Positions 44,169 through 47,619 of a stretch of DNA of 64,000 nucleotides are shown one piece after another (position 1 is the first letter of the stretch; each line of letters starts with the position of its first letter). Made by a program: the position numbers and the translations under genes. The DNA is taken from NCBI GenBank assembly GCA_016868785.1, contig VGFS01000008.1, positions 1-64,000 on the forward strand, written 5' to 3'. Below the pieces are notes generated by a model. That model searched no databases and had not been told where the DNA came from. It worked only from the letters and a program-made list of their open reading frames with translations. This DNA is from Bacteroidota bacterium (GTDB lineage: Bacteria; Bacteroidota; Bacteroidia; NS11-12g; UBA955).

Positions 44169-44702
44169 TTAGCACACGGGTTTAAAGCCTTCAAAGGCGT
44201 TCAAGCAGTTTTTACAGTAGTGCATACTGCGACACAGGGTAGGTCCGAATGGGGTTTGCATCTCTGTATTTCTTGAATTGCAGTAGGGGCAGGGGGTATC
44301 GCTCAGTACGTCCAATTCAATGTATCCGTCGTGTTTTGGTGGCGGTGCTAGGCCGTGTTTTTTGAGTGCAGCGAGGCCTTTTTCTGTAATCATGTTGGTA
44401 TTCCACTGTTTGTTAAACGTGGTGGTTACCTCGATGTGGGTGTATCCTGATTCGGATAATTTGTCGTGAACCAATTGTTCCATGATGCGCAGTGCGGGAC
44501 AGCCACTGAAAGTGGGTGTCAGCTCTATTTTGGCATGGCCAGGTTCGGGGGATTCTATGCCTGTTACGATGCCCAAATCCACGATGGAAATGGTGGGGAT
44601 TTCGGGATCCATGACGGTTTCCAGAAGGGCTTTGATGGATGTGGACATCGTTTGGCGTATTGTATTAATGGGTTGTGGTGGATTGGGTTTACCAATCGGC
44701 AC
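44169..44702 (-). CDS. paaD: 1,2-phenylacetyl-CoA epoxidase subunit PaaD
   Basis: MDPEIPTISIVDLGIV, TPTFSGCPAL, C-terminal CPYC...CRSMHYCKNC. True start may be the internal ATG of MSTSIKALLE. Confidence 0.92.
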   Translation of the reverse strand: MPIGKPNPPQPINTIRQTMSTSIKALLETVMDPEIPTISIVDLGIVTGIESPEPGHAKIELTPTFSGCPALRIMEQLVHDKLSESGYTHIEVTTTFNKQWNTNMITEKGLAALKKHGLAPPPKHDGYIELDVLSDTPCPYCNSRNTEMQTPFGPTLCRSMHYCKNCLNAFEGFKPVC

Positions 44703-45459
44703 CGGGATCGATGCTAAATACTTCGGTCATTTCATCGAGCAGGGGTTGTAGGTTGGGTGTATGCACACCTTTGCGCCCGCCGAAGGCGGGCTCTACCGCG
44801 TCTACCGATGGAACCATGTATCCATAAGAAGTCAACAACGGTACAACCTTATCCAACCAGCGTTGTTGCAATTCGGCTTCACCACCAAAAATGCCCGCTT
44901 CTATCAACTCAGCTTCGAAATCTCCAGGTTCAAACATCCCCAAAGCCAGCCCGAAATTTTCGTTGATGGCCTGCTGCATTCTGCCAAAGCTTTCTTCGCC
45001 ACCCGCTGCCAACTTCTGCATGAAAATATCGGCATGCATCGTGTGGTATTTGATTTCGCCCTTGAATTTCTTGGCCACCATCGCCAAAGGTTCAAAGACC
45101 GTCTCACTCAACATCTCGAAGCGAATCGCTTCGGCATGGTCGAAAAAGAAATGACGAACCATCGAAAAGTCGTACTCGCCAATCGGCAGTTCTACCAATT
45201 GAGAGCAATGAAACTGGGGGGCATTGCGTGTAAAAGCCACGGTGTCTGGGTCGCTTTCCCCCAATTCGTGTAGCAATTCAAACAGCGCCAACGACTGACC
45301 AATTTTGTCTTGAGCCATGCTGCTGAAGGCGATGTCTTCCTCCAACATTGGACCCAAGCCAGTCCATTCGCTGTTGCGGTGACCAATGATCAACAGGTCG
45401 TCGGCCATTTTATAAAGGAGTTCTTTCAATCCTTCTACGTGTCTTTCTGTAAATTCCAT
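44689..45459 (-). CDS. paaC: 1,2-phenylacetyl-CoA epoxidase subunit PaaC
   Basis: ADDLLIIGHRNSEWTGLGPMLEEDIAFSSMAQDKIGQSLALFELL. Confidence 0.93.
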   Translation of the reverse strand: MEFTERHVEGLKELLYKMADDLLIIGHRNSEWTGLGPMLEEDIAFSSMAQDKIGQSLALFELLHELGESDPDTVAFTRNAPQFHCSQLVELPIGEYDFSMVRHFFFDHAEAIRFEMLSETVFEPLAMVAKKFKGEIKYHTMHADIFMQKLAAGGEESFGRMQQAINENFGLALGMFEPGDFEAELIEAGIFGGEAELQQRWLDKVVPLLTSYGYMVPSVDAVEPAFGGRKGVHTPNLQPLLDEMTEVFSIDPGADW

Positions 45460-45468
45460 GATAGGGTA

Positions 45469-45846
45469 TTAAGCGTTGTTGGTTCTGGCTTTGAATGCGT
45501 TGATGCGGTCCATTACTTTGTAGCTGTTGGGGTCGCGATACAATTTGTCTTCAGTGGTTTCAAAGATGTCGGCGTCTTGGTATTCAGTTACGAAAACATC
45601 GGCTGTTTTTACCACCCACAAATTCACGGCAGCCCCACGTCGGCAGTATTGCTCTTTGGCAAACAGCATGGCCATTTCTGCGTTGGGAGCATGCACATTG
45701 CCCACATGTTGGTGGTGCGTGCCACGCTTGATCTGCTGAAATACTTCGTAGGTTTGGAAGTGCTCGCTGCCGTGCAATTCGCCAATTTTGGACTCGTCGT
45801 CGAGTTCAGCCCTACTAATCCTTGGATCTAAAGAATTGATTTTCAT
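45469..45846 (-). CDS. paaB: 1,2-phenylacetyl-CoA epoxidase subunit PaaB
   Basis: YEVFQQIKRGTHHQHVGNVHAPNAEMAMLFAKEQYCRRGAAVNLWVV. Confidence 0.93.
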   Translation of the reverse strand: MKINSLDPRISRAELDDESKIGELHGSEHFQTYEVFQQIKRGTHHQHVGNVHAPNAEMAMLFAKEQYCRRGAAVNLWVVKTADVFVTEYQDADIFETTEDKLYRDPNSYKVMDRINAFKARTNNA

Positions 45847-46859: not shown

Positions 46860-47426
46860 TTAGTTTTTTTGTAGTCCTGAGAGAATGAATTGGGTTAGTT
46901 TCTGGGCGATTTCTTTCGGTTCCATATCGCCTTGAGGCCTGTACCATTCACCCACCCAGTTGAGCGAGGCGAGGATGGTGAGGGTGGCGAATTTTGGGTC
47001 AACGTTTTTGAATTCCCCTTCTTCGAAACCAAGAATCACAATGTCGCGAAATTCTTTTTCGTACAAGTCACGACGTTGAATGAATTGCGCACGTTTGTCG
47101 TCTGATAAATGTCGCCATTCATGCACGAACAAGTGCGATGCGTTGAGGTCCTGGGTAAGTGCTTGGATGTGGTTGTGGATGGCCATGGCCAATTTTTCCG
47201 CAGCGTTGAAGTAGATGTCGTTCACTTCTTTGATGCCCATTTCCAAAGTTTCCGCCAATCCAAAGCAAGTGTCGATGAGGATCTCTTCTTTGCCTTTGAT
47301 GTGGTTGTACAGGCTCGCGGCTTCCATATTTACGGAGCTGGCTATGTCGCGCATCGAGGTATTTAAATACCCTTTTTTGCGCATTAAGCCCAAGGCCGTT
47401 CCCATGATTTCTTGCCGACGTGTCAT
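46860..47426 (-). CDS. TetR/AcrR family transcriptional regulator
   Basis: [50 protein letters not shown]. The ORF opens at 47453 but the promoter layout supports the ATG at 47426. Confidence 0.92.
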
Positions 47427-47437
47427 TGTTAACAATA

Positions 47438-47468
47438 CAAAACTAACTAACACTTGTTAGTTTTCCAA
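47438..47468 (-). promoter_or_regulatory. Promoter TTG-N20-TAGTTTTG for tetR-paaABCD with operator in the spacer
   Basis: Minus strand: TTG (complement 47466-47468), 20-nt spacer, TAGTTTTG (complement 47438-47445). Palindrome AACTAACA-CT-TGTTAGTT at 47445-47462. Confidence 0.75.
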
Positions 47469-47619
47469 ATATTTTGTAAAATTGCCTGAATGGGCGATAG
47501 GAATTTTGCTTGAATTTGGATTTGGACCAATACAGTTGGACTTTTTGTTTTTATTAATATTCAAGGTTTTGATGATAGTATCAAATGATATTATCTGGTT
47601 TGAAACGTCAAATCGTATT

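Follow-up and report, generated by a model that had tools for sequence, protein, structure and literature searches.

A conserved palindrome in the promoter of a Bacteroidota tetR-paaABCD operon as the likely operator of a PaaR-type autorepressor

The window analysed here, a stretch of 64,000 nucleotides from a Bacteroidota bacterium (contig VGFS01000008.1 of assembly GCA_016868785.1), carries on its minus strand the genes tetR, paaA, paaB, paaC and paaD, which are listed with the features of their promoter in Table 1. This gene order had been proposed in a preliminary description of the locus and was confirmed with Pfam and NCBIfam, PaaB passing the Pfam threshold only. Since consecutive genes are separated by about 10 nt or overlap, tetR-paaABCD most likely constitutes a single operon. 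The kdsB gene lies upstream of tetR in the same orientation, after a gap of about 190 nt.

Table 1. Genes and predicted regulatory features of the tetR-paaABCD locus (positions in the window)
Feature	Position	Strand	Basis or remark
-33 element TTG	47466..47468	-	20-nt spacer to -7 element
-7 element TAGTTTTG (consensus TAnnTTTG)	47438..47445	-	in 7/7 distinct promoters of the window's genus and its sister genus
Predicted transcription start	47433	-	by analogy with F. psychrophilum, box at -12 to -5 (PMC9723704); 7-nt leader
TetR operator (predicted)	47445..47462	.	perfect palindrome AACTAACACTTGTTAGTT, kept in 51/51 orthologous upstream regions
Conserved operator core CTAAC-N4-GTTAG	47447-47460		within palindrome
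Second dyad AAAACTAAC-N8-GTTAGTTTT	47439..47464	.	overlaps palindrome (repeat search)
tetR (PaaR-like repressor, 188 aa; TetR_N + TetR_C_24)	46860..47426	-	Pfam, structure model
paaA	45857..46849	-	TIGR02156, 448.5 bits
paaB	45469..45846	-	PF06243, 90.7 bits; TIGR02157, 83.6 bits, just below 85.45 cut-off
paaC	44689..45459	-	TIGR02158, 209.3 bits
paaD	44169..44702	-	TIGR02159, 156 bits

The first gene had been taken for a TetR regulator and, indeed, its product scores above the cut-offs of both TetR-family domains (PF00440 and PF17932). The structure model (pLDDT 94.8) predicts nine helices and an all-helical C-terminal domain. Its structural neighbours are KstR2 (top match, TM-score 0.93), PfmR and AibR with isovaleryl-CoA, the best neighbour chains reaching TM-scores (query) of 0.83-0.93. 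By profile the closest protein of solved structure is PfmR, with about 32% identity to the PfmR gene on pTT27. PaaX is another repressor of paa operons that responds to phenylacetyl-CoA (PMC9493321), but it is a GntR-type regulator, from another protein family than TetR, and this identity was rejected.

On the minus strand, the region upstream of tetR reads TTTGGAAAACTAACAAGTGTTAGTTAGTTTTGTATTGTTAACAATG and contains TTG-N20-TAGTTTTG, with a -7 box whose first base precedes the start codon of tetR by 19 nt. The suggested match of both elements to the Bacteroidota primary-sigma consensus was borne out; TTG-N18-21-TAnnTTTG arose by chance in 0.6% of dinucleotide-shuffled versions of the 110-nt region upstream of tetR. 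A scan for E. coli-type -35/-10 elements gave no match clearly over the shuffle level. Promoter statistics were then drawn from 445 kb (the window and loci L102-L121 of its own genome, G000) with 339 simple longest-ORF gene calls. There, 63 of 92 TAnnTTTG boxes fall 11-30 nt upstream of an ATG, and a coding control of equal lengths held 14 boxes. With its position at -19 the tetR box is unremarkable for this genome, in which boxes are preferred about -12 to -30 from the ATG. In the F. psychrophilum transcriptome the same box lies at -12 to -5 (PMC9723704), and by analogy transcription of tetR would start so as to leave a leader of about 7 nt, which is short, yet common in the window's genome. 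In the same 445 kb we observed that the first base of TAnnTTTG peaks at -12/-13 from the ATG, 23 of the 72 boxes within -45..-9 starting at -12 to -14; with such a peak, many transcripts would have no leader or hardly any. Leaderless transcripts amount to 5.5% in F. psychrophilum (PMC9723704).

The 8+2+8 palindrome reported between these elements, AACTAACA-CT-TGTTAGTT, is exact, and a palindrome of this kind was found in 0.6% of dinucleotide shuffles of the 110-nt upstream region. It overlaps with an inverted pair formed by AAAACTAAC (47439-47447) and GTTAGTTTT (47456-47464). This second dyad amounts to a third CTAAC half-site at 47443-47447, which corresponds on the minus strand to an extension, GTTAGTTAG; extensions of this type were counted in 22 of 30 promoters from the window's family versus 1 of 21 in the sister family.

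We searched 77 genomes around that of the window, which was included, as well as named Bacteroidota and Flavobacteriales MAGs. Orthologues of tetR were found in 55 of the 77 genomes, and more of them in the two additional sets. In 55 of 56 cases paaA lies directly downstream of tetR, the remaining tetR being located at a contig end. By score there are two kinds of PaaA: 55 proteins at 302-458 bits, all with tetR, and 15 at 484-546 bits, none with tetR. In several relatives we noticed a protein of about 430-460 aa inserted between paaA and paaB (L057:2479-3867, L060:2680-3981 and L061:2366-3742); the one tested, from L057, carries a Por_Secre_tail secretion-system sorting tail.

When the orthologous promoters were aligned, the palindrome proved to be conserved in related paa promoters. 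Each of the 51 distinct regions upstream of orthologous tetR genes has the core CTAAC-N4-GTT(A/C)G no more than 60 nt from the start; as the search pattern left only position 2 (T/G) and position 13 (A/C) free to vary, the constancy of the remaining bases is built into the pattern, and what counts as evidence is that every region fits it. Shuffled upstream regions gave a mean of 0.01 cores and a maximum of 1. The core lies 17-55 nt upstream of the aligned start, its N4 is mostly R-A-N-Y, and the TetR proteins that accompany it range down to 40% identity. The full promoter pattern, TTG 18-21 nt before TAnnTTTG, was recovered in 39 of the 51 regions (in 300 rounds of shuffling, 0.5 on average and 3 at most). 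For the TetR homologues encoded on plasmids of Saprospira and Deinococcus (31-34% identity), the CTAAC operator was not found upstream. On the Saprospira grandis plasmid (NC_016936.1; L163), a 31%-identical TetR heads a row made of a thiamine-diphosphate enzyme and paaEABCD.

A TAnnTTTG box stands near nearly every one of the 51 operators, in three layouts. In layout I the box starts 15 nt downstream of the first base of the core, and the operator occupies the spacer; in layout II (38/51) the box lies 8-17 nt upstream of the operator, which then covers the start site; in layout III (3/51, all from genus g10) the box is 34 nt downstream and the operator lies on the -33 region. Three promoters have only a mismatched or distant box. 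Thus the location of the operator in the -33/-7 spacer, as first described, holds for the window's genus and its sister genus, to which layout I is confined (7/51), but it does not hold as a general mechanism of the family, in which the operator mostly lies over the start site.

In a tree built from 27 orthologous proteins, the sequences with layout I form one group with support of 100/97; layout I, shared by the two sister genera only, is a derived state with one origin. Its -33 TTG coincides in position with the -7 box of layout II (offset -13), and the TAG of its own -7 box is part of the GTTAGTTAG extension; we infer a conversion of layout II into layout I. While the box switches sides, the distance from operator to gene stays short, which suggests a promoter that shifted about an operator that stayed where it was. 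We tentatively propose a conceivable, if somewhat doubtful, history in which the operator was the fixed point and the promoter was assembled anew around it on at least two occasions. In the window's lineage, the former -7 box would have given its TTTG to the new -33 TTG, and the third half-site GTTAGTTAG would have furnished half of the new -7 box; in genus g9, further promoters, those of a tryptophanase-type lyase and of a radical SAM-SPASM protein, would have taken up the operator. If this is true, part of the sequence read by the sigma factor in the window's lineage is now also recognised by the repressor. In any case, three natural promoter layouts around one operator should be useful for asking how operator position alters repression.

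The nearest known counterpart is PaaR of T. thermophilus HB8 (TTHA0973), the first gene product of the autoregulated operon TTHA0973-paaABCD (TTHA0973-0969) (PMC6651687). It binds CNAACGNNCGTTNG; in a TTHA0973-deficient strain the operon is up 11- to 100-fold, and phenylacetyl-CoA weakens the binding of PaaR to DNA (PMC6651687, PMC9493321). The window shares with it a TetR gene placed first before paaABCD in the same operon order, and an operator of the form CNAAC-N4-GTTNG in the promoter; 12 of the 51 orthologous operators match CNAACGNNCGTTNG exactly, and all 51 fit CNAAC-N4-GTTNG. It differs in the inner pair of the operator (A-T instead of the Thermus consensus G-C), in its Bacteroidota promoter (TTG / TAnnTTTG), in an operon without a PaaZ-type gene and in a genome with a single operator rather than two. 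PaaR of B. cenocepacia (BCAL0210) is also a TetR repressor of paa genes, with an inverted repeat between -35 and -10, as in the window, and a dual overlapping inverted repeat was noted there as well (PMC2770484). However, its operator, ACCGACCGGTCGGTT, has another sequence and spacing, and the regulator is encoded in a separate transcription unit and acts on several target promoters. A literature search for a paa regulator of Bacteroidota yielded nothing useful.

Based on this comparison, the system of the window is best read as a mostly ordinary Bacteroidota member of the PaaR kind. The palindrome is very likely the operator of a PaaR-type TetR autorepressor that heads tetR-paaABCD and would be released by an aromatic CoA thioester, most likely phenylacetyl-CoA. 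In the absence of inducer, a TetR dimer would sit on the palindrome and cover about -29 to -12 of the promoter; perhaps two dimers bind, given the third half-site. The bound repressor would keep RNA polymerase off, so that tetR and paaABCD would both be repressed. The CoA thioester, phenylacetyl-CoA being the substrate of the Paa epoxidase, would then bind to the C-terminal domain and release the repressor. Against this reading speak the A/T inner pair of the window's own site, the missing PaaK and a paaE that is located elsewhere and has no operator. If the reading holds, CTAAC-N4-GTT(A/C)G would be a sharply defined operator consensus for phenylacetate control in a large aquatic Bacteroidota group.

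Three other explanations have to be weighed. That the palindrome is a functionless chance repeat is practically out of the question: although inverted repeats with arms of 8 and a loop of up to 8 arise in 3.4% of shuffles of this AT-rich upstream region, the conservation of the operator in 51 of 51 regions amid diverged flanks, against the shuffled mean given above, already refutes it, and the operator is single-copy in the window's genome. A real operator could also be combined with another, ancestral promoter, whose -7 box AATATTTG would lie just upstream, the repressor then blocking the start region. This arrangement is the one seen in layout II, and the window has AATATTTG on the minus strand at 47466-47473, at the matching offset of 13. 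Nevertheless, the first T is missing from this box and TTG does not occur 18-21 nt before it, it has decayed further in the relatives L013 (TTTTCTTG) and L015 (TTTCCTTG) while TTG-N20-TAGYTTTG is kept in 7 of 7, and boxes near -47 from the ATG are rare in the window's genome, where those at -12 to -30 are common. We therefore judge AATATTTG to be the weaker candidate compared with TAGTTTTG, and an active ancestral promoter quite improbable.

The remaining explanation concerns the ligand. The TetR protein might sense another acyl-CoA, of branched-chain, fatty or steroid type, as relatives resembling PfmR, AibR or KstR2 might, an option that we consider unlikely. KstR2, the top structural match, binds a steroid-derived CoA thioester. 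PfmR (T. thermophilus TTHB023, PDB 3vpr) has the same fold and is the closest solved relative by sequence, and the group lacks a recognisable PaaK. Against these points, tetR is strictly linked to paaA. Moreover, PfmR heads a different operon, that of an acyl-CoA dehydrogenase, and its operator, TACCGACCGNTNGGTN, does not fit CTAAC-N4-GTTAG, unlike the PaaR site (PMC7022988); a PfmR-type operator was also rejected for the orthologous promoters, all of which carry the CTAAC-N4-GTT(A/C)G core. Altogether, the likeness to the PaaR proteins of Thermus and Burkholderia, the CoA-type structural neighbours and the differing operator and operon of PfmR make a PaaR-type repressor released by a CoA thioester the best reading.

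As to the source of phenylacetyl-CoA, the group has no recognisable PaaK: PaaK (TIGR02155) was not found in the window's own genome and exceeded the cut-off in 0 of 77 genomes, and PaaA did so in 66 of the 77. For PaaZ, only weak aldehyde dehydrogenase matches were detected in the own genome. If phenylacetyl-CoA is the ligand, it may, speculatively, come from phenylalanine via a 2-oxoacid dehydrogenase or be made by an unrecognised ligase; the order of tetR, thiamine-diphosphate enzyme and paaEABCD on the Saprospira plasmid hints at the former route.

The genome search for the palindrome that had been suggested for defining the regulon returned one site only: in the 2.07 Mb genome of the window (G000) there is no other site with up to 2 mismatches. 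As the operator occurs once, the regulon probably consists of the tetR-paaABCD operon alone. In the same genome a second CTAACRNNYGTTAG site was not found; allowing one mismatch gave 14 further sites, almost all of them located within genes and none next to a paa gene. A paaE-like reductase (G000:C4:20196-21254, L102) is encoded away from paaABCD; it has a TAAATTTG box of its own, and the operator was not found upstream of it.

Across the genomes, second copies of the operator are overall no commoner than a reversed control pattern, so that only recurrent ones deserve attention. In both genomes of genus g9 the operator is followed, after 36-38 nt, by the gene of a beta-eliminating lyase of tryptophanase / tyrosine phenol-lyase type (L141 in G022, L151 in G032). 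Radical SAM-SPASM proteins that are homologous to each other have it at a distance of 40-135 nt upstream in three genomes, in L136 (G022), L150 (G032) and L128 (G025). An operator-like site was seen 87-88 nt upstream of a gene that, judged by eye only, resembles cytochrome c oxidase subunit II (L147 in G022, L149 in G032). In two species of the window's genus, CTAACAAGTGTTAG, which is the tetR operator core, precedes a photolyase-related (DPRP) gene in L157 (G014) and L159 (G005, gene recognised by eye); tetR and paaA were not detected in G014. Finally, in both g14 genomes the core lies 20 nt upstream of a gene for a glucosaminidase-like secreted protein whose Pfam score is just below the cut-off (L144 in G035, L145 in G027).
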